Shown here in pieces: positions 2,703-21,549 of a stretch of 25,231 bases of DNA. Source of the stretch: a virus. How positions within the stretch are numbered: the stretch's first letter is position 1; each line of letters begins with the position of its first letter. The notes under the pieces were generated by a model. That model did not search any database. It was not told the origin of the DNA and was given only the letters and a program-made list of their open reading frames with translations. The stretch spans positions 1-25,231 of IMG/VR virus record IMGVR_UViG_3300032296_000978; one strand, 5' to 3'. Made by a program: the position numbers and the translations under genes.

Positions 2703-3704
2703 ATGAACAAAACTCTACTCGTAGAAAAATACATCCGCAAATACTGCGACGAAAACAACCAATTAACCATTCCAAAACAAACCCTTGCTCGTTTGATTTA
2801 CAACGAAAACCACGGGCTTTTCAGCGGAATAGATGCGGTGCGAAACATTGTGAGGTCATTGACTGGCTCAAATAAAACCAACACCAAGGCACTGCCGGGA
2901 TTTTCGCAACCCAGCACAATCGAAGACGGTCTCCGCAAATACAAACTATTCACCAAGCTGCCCGAACCAAAAGAAAAAATCCTTAAACCCGGAGCGTGGC
3001 TGGTGATGTCGGATATTCACTTTCCTGAACATGACCCGACAGCCATTGCCGCATCTTTACAACTGGCAAAAAATGCAAATGTTGACGGGATTGTGTTGAA
3101 TGGCGACATAATCGATATGTACGAAGTGAGCCGGTTTATTAAGGAAGTAGGCAGGCCGTCAATCAAAACCGAACTTGAAATGACACGAAGTTTTTTTCAG
3201 TTACTCAGGGACGAATTTGGGGATATTCCTATCGTTTACAAGTTCGGCAATCACGAAGAAAGAATGCGGAACTACCTGCTCACAAACGCCCGTGCGATTG
3301 CTGAATTAGACGGCATCGGACTTGAAGACCAGTTGCAACTCAAAAAATTTGGTATTGATGTGGTTTACCGGGAACGGATAAGAGCCGGGAAACTTGACAT
3401 ATTGCACGGCCACGAATTGCAGAAGGGAATTTCTGCCCCGGTTAACCCAGCACGGGGGGCGTTTTTAAGGGCTAAAAGTTCACTGCTAATAGGACACCAC
3501 CACCAAACCAGCACACATCACGAAAACAACCTTAAACGCGACCAGATTGTATGTTATTCAATCGGCTGCCATTGTACTTTGACACCGGAATATAACCCGT
3601 TCGGTTATACCCGGCAAAATCACGGGGGCGCAATCGTTGAAATTTTAAAGGGTGGCAATTTCAAAGTGAACAATTACAGAATAATCAACGGGAGTGTGTA
3701 CTAA
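2703..3704 (+). CDS. Calcineurin-like metallophosphoesterase
   Basis: The 333-residue protein carries the complete metal-binding motif set of the calcineurin-like phosphoesterase fold: SDIHFPEH (Asp104, His106), GDIID (Asp135, Asp138), FGNHEER (Asn183, His184), HGHE (His235, His237) and IGHHH (His265-His267). Together these bind two metal ions and hydrolyse phosphodiester or phosphomonoester bonds. The substrate cannot be read from sequence. Residues 1-90 form an additional N-terminal region with a possible helix-turn-helix (IPKQTLARLIYNENHG), so the protein may bind DNA or RNA. It starts its own transcription unit behind a terminator and promoter. Its stop overlaps the next start (TAATG). 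Family assignment is strong. A role in nucleotide recycling, DNA processing or counter-defence remains open. Confidence 0.87.
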   Translation: MNKTLLVEKYIRKYCDENNQLTIPKQTLARLIYNENHGLFSGIDAVRNIVRSLTGSNKTNTKALPGFSQPSTIEDGLRKYKLFTKLPEPKEKILKPGAWLVMSDIHFPEHDPTAIAASLQLAKNANVDGIVLNGDIIDMYEVSRFIKEVGRPSIKTELEMTRSFFQLLRDEFGDIPIVYKFGNHEERMRNYLLTNARAIAELDGIGLEDQLQLKKFGIDVVYRERIRAGKLDILHGHELQKGISAPVNPARGAFLRAKSSLLIGHHHQTSTHHENNLKRDQIVCYSIGCHCTLTPEYNPFGYTRQNHGGAIVEILKGGNFKVNNYRIINGSVY

Positions 3705-3967
3705 TGTTGACAAGGCCATTGATAATTGATGTACTGGCAGCGGACGAAGAAGGGGAACAACTCGAAGATTTGGGGTTGCAACCCGATTTATGGGAAGCCC
3801 CAAGTTTTCAAATTGCCATTTGGAATGTTGAGTATGTTATGGAAGATATCCGGAGCACCAAGTCCACGCCCTTAACAATGATTTGCACTGGCAGCGAAGA
3901 ATGGCTAACTTTGATGACCACAAAACAAGTCAATGAAAAAATCATGCAATGCATGAAATTATATTAG
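3704..3967 (+). CDS. Small acidic hypothetical protein
   Basis: An 87-residue acidic protein whose ATG overlaps the stop of the phosphoesterase gene by one base, so it is probably translated by re-initiation. The sequence suggests a mixed alpha/beta fold (PLIIDVLAA, FQIAIWNVEYVME, PLTMICTGSEEWLTL) with a C-terminal helix (KQVNEKIMQCMKL). There is no signal peptide or membrane segment. No family is recognised. Its TAG stop overlaps the first base of the tRNA-like gene that follows, so both may be cut from one transcript. The close coupling suggests a functional link to the phosphoesterase, but this is inference. Confidence 0.65.
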   Translation: MLTRPLIIDVLAADEEGEQLEDLGLQPDLWEAPSFQIAIWNVEYVMEDIRSTKSTPLTMICTGSEEWLTLMTTKQVNEKIMQCMKLY

Positions 3968-4082
3968 CCCGGTTAGTGTAAATTGGTAACATCACCCTTC
4001 CGGATAACTTGTCAGTAGGTTGCAAGGCTCGACGCGAAAAACAAAAAGAGGGTGGCTGTGAGTTCGAGTCTCACACCGGGAG
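3967..4082 (+). tRNA. tRNA-like gene with an oversized anticodon region
   Basis: The two ends form a tRNA. Acceptor strands GCCCGGT (3967-3973) and ACCGGGA (4075-4081) give six pairs plus a G-A mismatch at the first position. The D-stem is GTGT/ACAT with a GG-containing loop. The T-arm is perfect: GTGAG, TTCGAGT, CTCAC at 4058-4074. The anticodon stem CACCCT/AGGGTG (3993-3998 and 4049-4054) encloses about 50 bases instead of 7, and no standard anticodon with U33 can be assigned confidently. CCA is not encoded. It may carry a small intron-like insert, be a decayed tRNA, or be a tRNA-mimic RNA. It lies between convergent transcripts. Amino-acid identity is not called. Confidence 0.6.
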
Positions 4083-4706
4083 CTAAACTTCAAACAGCGT
4101 GTAATCTATGCGCTGCCCGTTTGAGAATAGTTTGCATACTTCAAACCACATTGCATCTTGCACCACATGACACCCGGCAGACCAGCCGTTGATCGTGGCA
4201 GCAACACCACCGCGATGCAGGTTTATTCCAAACAATCCAAATTGCTTTATGTGGCTATCAATTAAGCGGTTTTTATTGCCGTCCCGGTAGATTGTTATTG
4301 GCAGAACCTGCATAAAGTAAGGGGCGTTCAGCCACAAAAACTTCCAATTTGCAGCCGTTACAAATTGATGCGCCCCGATTATTTGCTGTTCACACGCTAT
4401 GGCAGTGCCCGTAATTCCACCAACGGTCAAAGGATTGAACACATAGTAATCCCCTGCGGTTGTTGAGCAAGGCAAAGCCATAACGGGAAGCCCTGATTTA
4501 TACACCGCCACGAAGTCATCAAAGGTATTTGTGAGGTTTTTGTCCGTTCTTATCCACACCAGCCCGTCTTTTGGCATTAACCACTTGCGTTTTTCTAAAT
4601 TCGTCTTTACATATTGATGCAAAGCGGTCAATGTACGCTGCCCTACTATGCCGTCAACAACTAATTGCGCCCCGTTGGCATTCAAAATCTCTTGTAACTT
4701 TCTCAT
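4083..4706 (-). CDS. Endolysin, L,D-transpeptidase/YkuD-like
   Basis: Residues 1-33 resemble half of a peptidoglycan-binding repeat (LQEILNANGAQLVVDGIVG, TLTALHQYV). The rest ends in the catalytic block FGINLHRGG, then NGWSAGCHVV about a dozen residues later: His164, Ser176, Gly178 and the nucleophile Cys179 fit the His...S-x-G-C pattern of YkuD-type enzymes. RDGNKNRLID (141-150) looks like a calcium-binding loop, a feature I associate with this lysin type. The enzyme would act on peptidoglycan cross-links in the periplasm. There is no signal peptide, so export should depend on the holin-like proteins encoded just upstream. It is the last gene of the late unit, and its start overlaps the spanin-like gene (ATGA). 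Confidence 0.75.
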   Translation of the reverse strand: MRKLQEILNANGAQLVVDGIVGQRTLTALHQYVKTNLEKRKWLMPKDGLVWIRTDKNLTNTFDDFVAVYKSGLPVMALPCSTTAGDYYVFNPLTVGGITGTAIACEQQIIGAHQFVTAANWKFLWLNAPYFMQVLPITIYRDGNKNRLIDSHIKQFGLFGINLHRGGVAATINGWSAGCHVVQDAMWFEVCKLFSNGQRIDYTLFEV

Positions 4707-19390: not shown

Positions 19391-20580
19391 ATATTTTGCA
19401 GGATTTCGGGTTCGGTATATTCAACTTCAATTCGCAACTGCTGAGGCCCGTCATTCAGGTCAAACACTTCCATTGAGGTGTTCGTGATGTTAACGGGTAT
19501 AGTGCCGTCCAAATAGACAATAGGGCTGCTCAGTAAATCGTCCACCCATTGCCACTCAGTTGCGTTGAGAAAGTCAGTGTTTAGGATTACTTTCCGCGTT
19601 TTGGTTGTGGAGTAGTTTGCGATGCCGTGGGCTGCGGTGTCGCGTCCGTATTGCGTCCCGGTGAACTCATAAGTATTGCGTTTTAATTGTTTGCGTTGTA
19701 CTTCATAAATGTCGCGGTTCAGCATACCACATCGCAGCGTTTCAAAGCCGCCAAGGCGATTGAGAAAATACAATACACGGGGCGTGTACTTAGAGCACTC
19801 CTCAATCACATCAAACCGATATGCCTCACTGCAAGGGTCATTCCCGATACTTTGTTTCAGCTGTATGGTATAATAGACAGTCCCAACGGGAACAACCGAA
19901 CCTGCCGTGCCACTAATTAAACTTGCCGAAGGTATTTGATTAAGATTTACAACCCCGGCTGCCATACGGAGTAAGTATTCATCCTTTGCCGATGTGTTAA
20001 AGCTTTGGTCAATTACCGATGTGGTGGCGTTACCTGCCGCATCGTAGGCTTTCACTTCCACTTCATCAACACCCGTGGCCGCACCCCTGAGAAAATAAAG
20101 GTAATCGTACTGAGTCCTTGTAACCCTGCGACTGCGAACGGTGGTTAAAAACTTTCTGCTGCTGGGTATTGCTATTTCGTAATCACTAACGGCTTCACTT
20201 TCCCATTTAGAAAATAATCCGTTCCAAGTGTACTTACCCGTGTCGCTGGTCAGGTTAAGATATTCTGCGCCTCCGTATTCTTCGCCAAACTCAACTGAGT
20301 ATGCAAGAAATGAGTTGCTGCATTTGGCCGGAATTGTCGTCGCCTGATTGAAGTCAAAGGTTACATAGTTTTGCAATATCCGGGATAGGTTAAACACCCC
20401 GTAACTGGTGCCAGTGTAAACGGGGGCTTTGAGTTTGGCAAGGATAGTGCCAGCCGCATTTTTTACAACGGCAACAAATTTAAAATTGCTTTGCCCTGAG
20501 TTTGTGCTGCTCAGTGTGTAGGTTATGTCGGAATAAACGGGGGTGATGTCGCCCGGTTCGTTTTCAATGGTAATCGCCAC
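19387..20580 (-). CDS. Tail protein (distal-tail/hub candidate)
   Basis: The GTG start at 20580 is chosen because a GTACATTT motif ends 7 bases upstream of it and the frame is closed soon after. The 397-residue product is beta-rich: ITPVYSDITYTLSSTNSGQSNFKFVAVVKNAAGTILAKLK at the N-terminus, a YGVFNLSRILQNYVTFDFN segment, and a central TTVRSRRVTRTQYDYLYFLRGA. A second conserved part around RVLYFLNRLGGFETLRCGM is followed by VILNTDFLNATEWQWVDDLLSSP. I have seen this protein type paired with the large tail protein that follows in Bacteroidota phages, where it is annotated as a tail or virion protein. A distal-tail role is an inference from size and position. Confidence 0.66.
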   Translation of the reverse strand: MAITIENEPGDITPVYSDITYTLSSTNSGQSNFKFVAVVKNAAGTILAKLKAPVYTGTSYGVFNLSRILQNYVTFDFNQATTIPAKCSNSFLAYSVEFGEEYGGAEYLNLTSDTGKYTWNGLFSKWESEAVSDYEIAIPSSRKFLTTVRSRRVTRTQYDYLYFLRGAATGVDEVEVKAYDAAGNATTSVIDQSFNTSAKDEYLLRMAAGVVNLNQIPSASLISGTAGSVVPVGTVYYTIQLKQSIGNDPCSEAYRFDVIEECSKYTPRVLYFLNRLGGFETLRCGMLNRDIYEVQRKQLKRNTYEFTGTQYGRDTAAHGIANYSTTKTRKVILNTDFLNATEWQWVDDLLSSPIVYLDGTIPVNITNTSMEVFDLNDGPQQLRIEVEYTEPEILQNI

Positions 20581-21227: not shown

Positions 21228-21230
21228 CAA

Positions 21231-21260
21231 AGAGAAACCCGGCTCATTGCTGAAACCGGG
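21231..21260 (-). terminator. Intrinsic terminator closing the inserted cassette
   Basis: Minus strand: ACCCGG (21260-21255) pairs with CCGGGT around a 13-base loop and is followed by TTTCTCTTT. The T-run is interrupted by one C, so efficiency is uncertain. Confidence 0.72.
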
Positions 21261-21265
21261 TCGGT

Positions 21266-21284: not shown

Positions 21285-21290
21285 GGAGGG

Positions 21291-21398
21291 TAGTCAGGAC
21301 AGGACTCGAACCTGTTATTGAATATAGAGGTTGTAGTTTTCGTACTGGTTATACAACATGATACTCCATTTAAGCGTCTACCATTCCGCCACCTGACT
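21291..21398 (-). tRNA. tRNA-like gene (Leu-type 5' half) with atypical anticodon/variable region
   Basis: On the minus strand AGTCAGG (21398-21392) pairs perfectly over seven bases with CCTGACT (21298-21292). The 5' half (TGGCGGAATGGTAGACGC) has the leucine-type three-pair D-stem and GG loop. The T-arm ACAGG, TTCGAGT, CCTGT is perfect. The middle of about 58 bases does not form a normal five-pair, seven-base anticodon arm. It can form a long helix instead: ATGGAGTAT with ATATTCAAT, then GTTGTA with TACAAC, around a 16-base loop. CCA is not encoded. It is therefore a tRNA-like RNA, possibly a class II tRNA with an insert or a decayed tRNA-Leu. The anticodon is not called. Confidence 0.65.
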
Positions 21399-21404
21399 AT
21401 GTTT

Positions 21405-21518: not shown

Positions 21519-21549
21519 CAAATATACAAAACTATATTTAAAAAACAAA
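21519..21549 (-). promoter_or_regulatory. Consensus Bacteroidota housekeeping-type promoter
   Basis: Minus strand: TTTG (21549-21546), 19 bases, then TATATTTG (21526-21519), a perfect match to TTTG-N19-TAnnTTTG. The palindrome TGCATGCA (21513-21520) overlaps the downstream edge and could be an operator. Confidence 0.78.

Follow-up and report, generated by a model that had tools for sequence, protein, structure and literature searches.

The window (the whole stretch of viral DNA analysed here, 25,231 nucleotides) carries at 3967-4083 on the + strand a gene for a tRNA-shaped RNA, and comparison with its relatives shows that selection has maintained the full tRNA shell, in which a conserved hairpin (AGUA/GAA, GGCY) takes the place of the anticodon loop. 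The element is probably a non-decoding, tRNA-shaped stable phage RNA, in which the shell would act as a scaffold that displays the hairpin and engages the host tRNA machinery. The initial annotation had placed a tRNA-like gene at 3967-4082; these coordinates were correct, and the conserved element, counted from G1, extends to C74 at 4083. Its parts are as follows.

3967..4083 (+): whole tRNA-shaped RNA, G1 to C74 (RF00005 26.7 bits, covariance model matches, covariation)
3967..3973 (+): 5' strand of the acceptor stem, base 1 mismatched to base 72 (pair counts in relatives)
3976..3992 (+): D arm GTGT/ACAT with GG in the loop (stem covaries, GC to CG at 12-24)
3993..3998 (+): 5' strand of the anticodon stem, six pairs (two-sided changes in five of the six)
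3999..4048 (+): 50-nt insert replacing the 7-nt anticodon loop (Rfam alignment)
4049..4054 (+): 3' strand of the anticodon stem (pair covariation)
4058..4074 (+): T arm GTGAG TTCGAGT CTCAC (three compensatory pairs)
4075..4083 (+): 3' strand of the acceptor stem, ACCGGGA, then G73 and C74 (sequence; a gene inserted in one relative abuts the same end)

The cloverleaf of the window element comprises an acceptor stem (GCCCGGT/ACCGGGA, six of seven pairs formed), a D arm (GTGT/ACAT) and a T arm (GTGAG/CTCAC), followed by G73 and C74, and the shell also keeps the D- and T-loop contact bases and the variable loop. As described earlier, the anticodon stem (CACCCT/AGGGTG) has six pairs, from C3993-G4054 to T3998-A4049, and encloses 50 nt, the loop length given by Rfam as well, and not a 7-nt loop carrying U33 and a definite anticodon. 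The G-A mismatch that had been noted at the first acceptor pair is present, and is conserved as a mismatch, bases 1 and 72 being G.A, A.A or A.G in all relatives. CCA is not encoded at the 3' end of the element; the CTA present there is the stop codon of the downstream gene in reverse complement. The RNA was assigned to the + strand because its G-U pairs would turn into C-A on the opposite strand.

When the short stretch was searched with cmscan, RF00005 was the sole Rfam match, covering the full length at 26.7 bits (E 5.7e-4) with a 50-nt anticodon loop. This score lies slightly below the curated cut-off of 29 bits, which was exceeded by two relatives (35.0 and 32.3 bits). The whole-window Rfam scan gave no entries at E<=1, and default ARAGORN returned 0 tRNA genes in the window. 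With introns allowed, ARAGORN called Arg(CCG), placing a 45-nt intron at 37/38 and reading the loop as TTCCGGA. The covariance model search, proposed earlier as a check that might yield a standard fold, left the anomaly standing. Folding of the single sequence was uninformative (z -0.63), the cloverleaf lying 7 kcal/mol above the minimum free energy, a distance that spans 0-17 among 52 ARAGORN-called tRNAs.

Relatives were gathered via neighbouring proteins (19 and 79 IMG/VR loci). With BLAST and a covariance model, the element was found in IMG/VR in 18 phage contigs including the window, as 14 distinct sequences, the model itself giving 33 matches to 14 distinct sequences, and in the loci examined it always lay 3' of an 87-aa ORF. 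The acceptor stems of three sequences, CCCGGT, CCCCGT and CCCCTT, each occurred with a matching partner, and the T and D stems also covaried among the relatives. Over 30 pairs and 14 distinct sequences, 95.2% of pair cells were formed, as against 40-57% in slid controls; two-sided changes were seen in 15 of the 30 pairs (3-4 pairs in slid controls), and the covariation score was 0.434, compared with 0.164 for shuffled and no more than 0.108 for slid controls. RNAalifold, applied to an alignment that was not fitted to any structure, recovered the four cloverleaf helices and paired the insert differently from our model. By these measures the cloverleaf fold exceeds chance expectation, and the acceptor, D and T arms described as easily recognised are borne out both by the full-length RF00005 match and by covariation over the 14 distinct sequences. 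The family model of the element also matched ordinary bacterial Trp and Glu tRNAs (E ~1e-6 per genome), which independently confirms the tRNA fold.

The exact element was confined to one phage lineage, its sister clade being without it. A pattern scan of cellular genome contigs gave 18 loci, none of which was confirmed by the model as insert-bearing, and no match to an insert-bearing copy was obtained at 1e-8 in 395 Bacteroidota genomes, in a scan run without a positive control. No instance of this element's shell with other cores was found, its 3' half being confined to 13 contigs already known.

One option offered earlier was an unusual small intron, by which the gene would be a genuine tRNA whose insert at 37/38 is excised by unusual or protein-based splicing, so that decoding is restored. 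The ARAGORN call, with its 45-nt intron at the canonical position, fits this account. However, the anticodon that it implies differs by relative (CCG, TAA, CCA, ACG or no call), and neither a constant U33 nor a constant splice junction was found in the aligned relatives, the bases beside the supposed junctions being variable. The insert is itself a conserved, covarying structured hairpin. A group I intron had been set aside on the ground of length, correctly so, as the insert measures 45-50 nt, far below group I length, and gave no Rfam intron match at E<=10. Nor was an RNA ligase or splicing gene found among the scanned genes of the relatives. A spliced tRNA was rejected because the anticodon is unconserved among relatives; this account is thus highly improbable, and the element is very probably not an intron-bearing tRNA. 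We take it to be non-decoding since it has no constant anticodon, U33 or junction, and since the 1-72 pair is always mismatched.

The other option, a decayed tRNA turned into some other RNA, stood in one part only. That the RNA has ceased to decode is supported, since selection acts on the shell and none of the relatives has an anticodon loop; that it has decayed is contradicted by the covariation of its stems and insert. A functionless tRNA pseudogene in decay would account for the mismatched first acceptor pair, for the lack of an encoded CCA and for a score just below the tRNA cut-off, but hardly for compensatory changes in every stem (14 distinct sequences, acceptor stems of three sequences) or for an insert core that is invariant over the 14 distinct sequences. 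We give a pseudogene next to no credence: judged by these alignments, the element is not a decayed tRNA.

The core of the insert has the order Pa, one variable base, AGTA, the Pb hairpin, GAAA and Pa', with the following features in the window.

4009..4012 (+): insert helix Pa, TTGT, pairing with ACAA at 4041-4044 (pair 44-78 is AU, GC or UA)
4014..4017 (+): AGTA half of the predicted bulged-G module, partner GAAA at 4036-4039 (both strands invariant)
4018..4035 (+): helix Pb of the insert, closed by the apical loop CAAGGCT (97% of its cells paired; pair 53-67 is GC, AU or CG)

AGTA, GAAA and GGCY were invariant across alignments of the relatives, in which the apical loop of Pb carries GGCT or GGCC and Pa is GGT/ACC, its outermost pair holding in only two sequences. 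Under our model, the insert covaried on its own (score 0.386 vs 0.134), in a fold that rests on few changes. AGUA opposite GAA is the consensus of the sarcin-ricin/loop E (bulged-G) module, and AGTA and GAAA lie invariant between Pa and Pb, as this consensus has it; the internal loop of the insert is therefore predicted to form such a module. No Rfam family, including any ribozyme, matched the insert. A search for antisense targets in the same genome fragment gave a longest complement of 11 nt and no more complementarity than shuffled copies. Pairing of the GGCY loop with the 3' end in a pseudoknot, inspected by eye, had just one change behind it, and we do not claim it.

The window belongs to a ~34-kb phage that encodes a terminase, a portal, a Rad52/Erf-like annealing protein and a peptidoglycan-binding enzyme; its relatives additionally encode a DnaB-like primase/helicase, a DnaD-like loader and DNA methylases. 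ARAGORN found no tRNA genes in the window or in the carrier contigs. TRNA-handling genes were found neither among ten Pfam-scanned proteins of a 34-kb relative nor among ten scanned against PHROG, and gene content gave no clear candidate for a phage protein partner among carrier-only genes. The element is located between convergent genes, as listed below.

3704..3967 (+): upstream 87-aa ORF, whose stop codon TAG overlaps G1 (no Pfam or PHROG match)
3883..3913 (+): possible promoter TTG ... TAACTTTG within the upstream ORF (uncertain; one of two full -33/-7 matches on this strand)
4083..4706 (-): convergent gene with a peptidoglycan-binding domain (PF09374 2.2e-5, phrog_3000 2.7e-15), its product a probable lysis or cell-wall enzyme

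The upstream gene overlaps the element by one base, as first described, the TAG at 3965-3967 sharing its last base with G1. The -7 box of the TTG..TAACTTTG pattern lies 61 nt upstream of the element and was absent in four of the eight homologues checked. TAnnTTTG is a Bacteroidota promoter consensus, and promoter boxes of this type suggest that the host of the phage belongs to the Bacteroidota.

This setting bears on the main alternative to the scaffold or decoy proposal, namely a cis-acting processing or 3'-end element, in which the tRNA shape would end the rightward operon by drawing RNase P and so replace a terminator. The position between two convergent genes fits such a role, and AT-rich, terminator-like hairpins occupy exactly the same site in the sister clade. 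The lack of a conserved promoter for the element points the same way, as does one carrier phage (L023) that gained a 159-aa gene directly after C74 (L023:4439-4918). For a cleavage signal, however, a 50-nt insert that is conserved and holds an invariant internal loop would be superfluous, and a related second RNA in the window (below), which has its own promoter box and terminator-like hairpin, is not at the end of an operon. On balance, a cis-acting role seems unlikely. The gene inserted in L023 has its own Bacteroidota-type promoter and belongs to a family without assignment.

A second tRNA-shaped RNA is encoded on the opposite strand, with the following features.

21288..21399 (-): second tRNA-shaped RNA, its shell TAGTCAGG..CCTGACTA Leu-like and its middle extended (RF00005 36.1 bits, above the cut-off)
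21519..21526 (-): -7-type promoter box TATATTTG, 5' of the second RNA (promoter pattern)
21230..21261 (-): terminator-like hairpin CCCGG..CCGGG with a T-rich tail, 3' of the second RNA (sequence)

The second RNA (c21399-21288) was 99% identical in two related genomes. In L147 and L150, the end of a TAnnTTTG box lies 4 nt upstream of it. A 30-aa ORF separates the box from the second RNA in the window, and this ORF is not there in two relatives. At the same site, sister phages carry tRNA-shaped RNAs that have a D-loop hairpin (loop GAATGAATA), and in these the hairpin forming the anticodon arm closes on a loop of a few bases. The GAATGAATA type was seen in L152, L154, L156, L177, L179, L181, L186, L189, L191 and L194, and the D-loop-hairpin pattern in 71 IMG/VR scan hits. 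One sister phage has at this site a minimal RNA of ~55 nt without an anticodon arm, another a 142-nt version of the second RNA's shell, and one carrier no tRNA-shaped RNA at all. Separately, a 72-nt gene resembling tRNA-Gly(TCC), which carries A33 and whose T stem is mismatched, was seen at 19676-19747 of the sister phage L152.

A 25-base stretch, the 3' half of the second RNA, recurred in no fewer than 119 IMG/VR scan hits, whose middles vary strongly, and the same pattern was absent from 395 Bacteroidota genomes. Among the matches listed, shells of this type reached 12 copies in 5 kb, often amid genuine tRNAs; copies with a recognisable 5' half (n=126) measured 56 to 195 nt, and default ARAGORN called just 34 of these 126, with scattered or impossible anticodons. 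The search pattern fixed the T-arm side, which in part accounts for the constancy seen there; beyond AGTCAGGT, the D-arm side was left free. In L395 and L396 (G465 and G461), as in the at least 119 scan hits, tRNA-shaped RNAs whose shell TAGTCAGGTGGCGGAA..ACAGGTTCGAATCCTGTCCTGACTA is near-constant and whose middles vary greatly form arrays, with normal tRNA genes and other RNAs of structured appearance between them. The loop TAATGAAT/GAATGAAT recurs in hairpins of otherwise unlike array copies, as in L305 and L279. We tentatively propose, at somewhat less than even confidence, a widespread and largely unannotated class of phage RNAs with a near-constant tRNA shell and exchanged cores, often arrayed, that may serve as scaffolds acting on host tRNA handling or defence; the element at 3967-4083 would be one lineage-specific family of this class.

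The preferred reading, a non-decoding stable RNA with a scaffold shell, draws its support from several sides. All four cloverleaf stems and the insert helices covary, RF00005 recognises the window element and, more strongly, the two relatives, the family model in turn recognises ordinary Trp and Glu tRNAs, and the relatives share no consistent anticodon. The same window encodes a second RNA of this build, flanked by a promoter box and a terminator-like hairpin, the RNAs of sister phages at that second site have a reduced or missing anticodon arm, the 3' half of the second RNA recurs widely with variable middles, and T5 RNA1 gives the same Rfam picture. Counted against it are the unconserved upstream promoter, the occurrence of the exact element in one lineage only, with AT-rich hairpins in its place in the sister clade, an insert fold that depends on few changes, and complementarity of the insert to the rest of the window at the shuffled level.

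As to mechanism, we infer that host RNase P and tRNA 3'-end enzymes would cut the RNA from a phage transcript, and that it would then be as stable as a tRNA, unspliced and non-decoding. The shell would be a scaffold matured and protected by host enzymes, with the hairpin arm as the active part. In the weakest step of the proposal, the RNA may engage host factors that recognise the tRNA elbow or acceptor (processing, modification or tRNA-targeting defence) as a decoy or for docking, and a decoy for host tRNA-acting factors is our leading guess. A more specific version would have the element as an anti-defence decoy, a tRNA look-alike without the loop that binds tRNA-targeting toxins or nucleases and is itself immune to anticodon cleavage. 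Phage tRNAs are known as targets of, and escape routes from, tRNA-cleaving defences (PMC13096335). The constancy of the acceptor and T-arm halves, beside an anticodon arm that is repeatedly replaced or lost, would agree with such a role, and variable middles are what an arms race would give. No partner was found, however, and no defence system is tied to these phages, which leaves the anti-defence version conceivable and rather doubtful.

With a covarying family in hand and shells in at least 119 scan hits, the role of phage tRNA-shaped RNAs becomes directly testable. The results also carry a warning, in that tRNA finders label such genes odd tRNAs or intron tRNAs, or miss them. In the literature consulted, where older T4/T5 work is thinly covered, we found no description of the class, the element's family, the loop-E-like arm, a tRNA-less carrier or the breadth of occurrence.

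Compared with known systems, the element is like a canonical bacterial or phage tRNA (RF00005) in its shell, its D- and T-loop bases, its variable loop and the cross-recognition of the models, and unlike one in having no 7-nt anticodon loop, no U33 and a 1-72 mismatch in all relatives. Canonical tRNA introns lie at 37/38 (PMC4090602). The intron-containing pre-tRNAs of archaea and eukaryotes resemble the element in an insert within the anticodon loop near this position, and differ from it in that its anticodon and splice junction are unconserved and its insert is a conserved module. Transfer-messenger RNA (tmRNA) is a tRNA-like RNA without an anticodon, but the element has a D stem and gave no tmRNA match in the Rfam scans. 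T4 encodes beside its tRNAs two small stable RNAs annotated without function, rnaC and rnaD (139 and 119 nt); rnaC shares with the element a tRNA-like T arm at its end, but was not recovered as a tRNA by Rfam and has no clear D arm or cloverleaf.

The closest parallel lies in T5, in which a phage tRNA-like stable RNA of unexplained function is already known: the genome record (AY543070) labels both RNA1 and RNA2 'tRNA-like stable RNA with unknown functions'. Like the element, RNA1 matched RF00005, at 24.0 bits and with a loop of 47 nt (26.7 bits and 50 nt in the window), and its acceptor, D and T arms surround an anticodon region that is enlarged and non-decoding. RNA2 gave a weak tRNA match over its T-arm/acceptor part. 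T5-like genomes have a 21-base T-arm/acceptor stretch in common with the second RNA of the window, and this stretch falls inside the region corresponding to T5 RNA2. A counterpart of T5 RNA2 that is unannotated, together with structured RNAs, was seen between tRNA-Asp and tRNA-Pro in T5-like genomes (L402 380-640, T5_ev212). As far as seen, the sequence and structure of the T5 insert are unrelated to those of the element. The T5 RNAs also stand within a large cluster of decoding tRNAs, a trait that does not clearly define this kind of RNA, whereas the 34-kb lineage has none by ARAGORN; the architecture is thus not a by-product of a tRNA cluster, since it is present, and strongly covarying, in small phages without decoding tRNAs. 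The stable RNAs of T5 and T4 have been recorded in genome entries with tRNA-like features and without a function, and the element described here has the same architecture as T5 RNA1.
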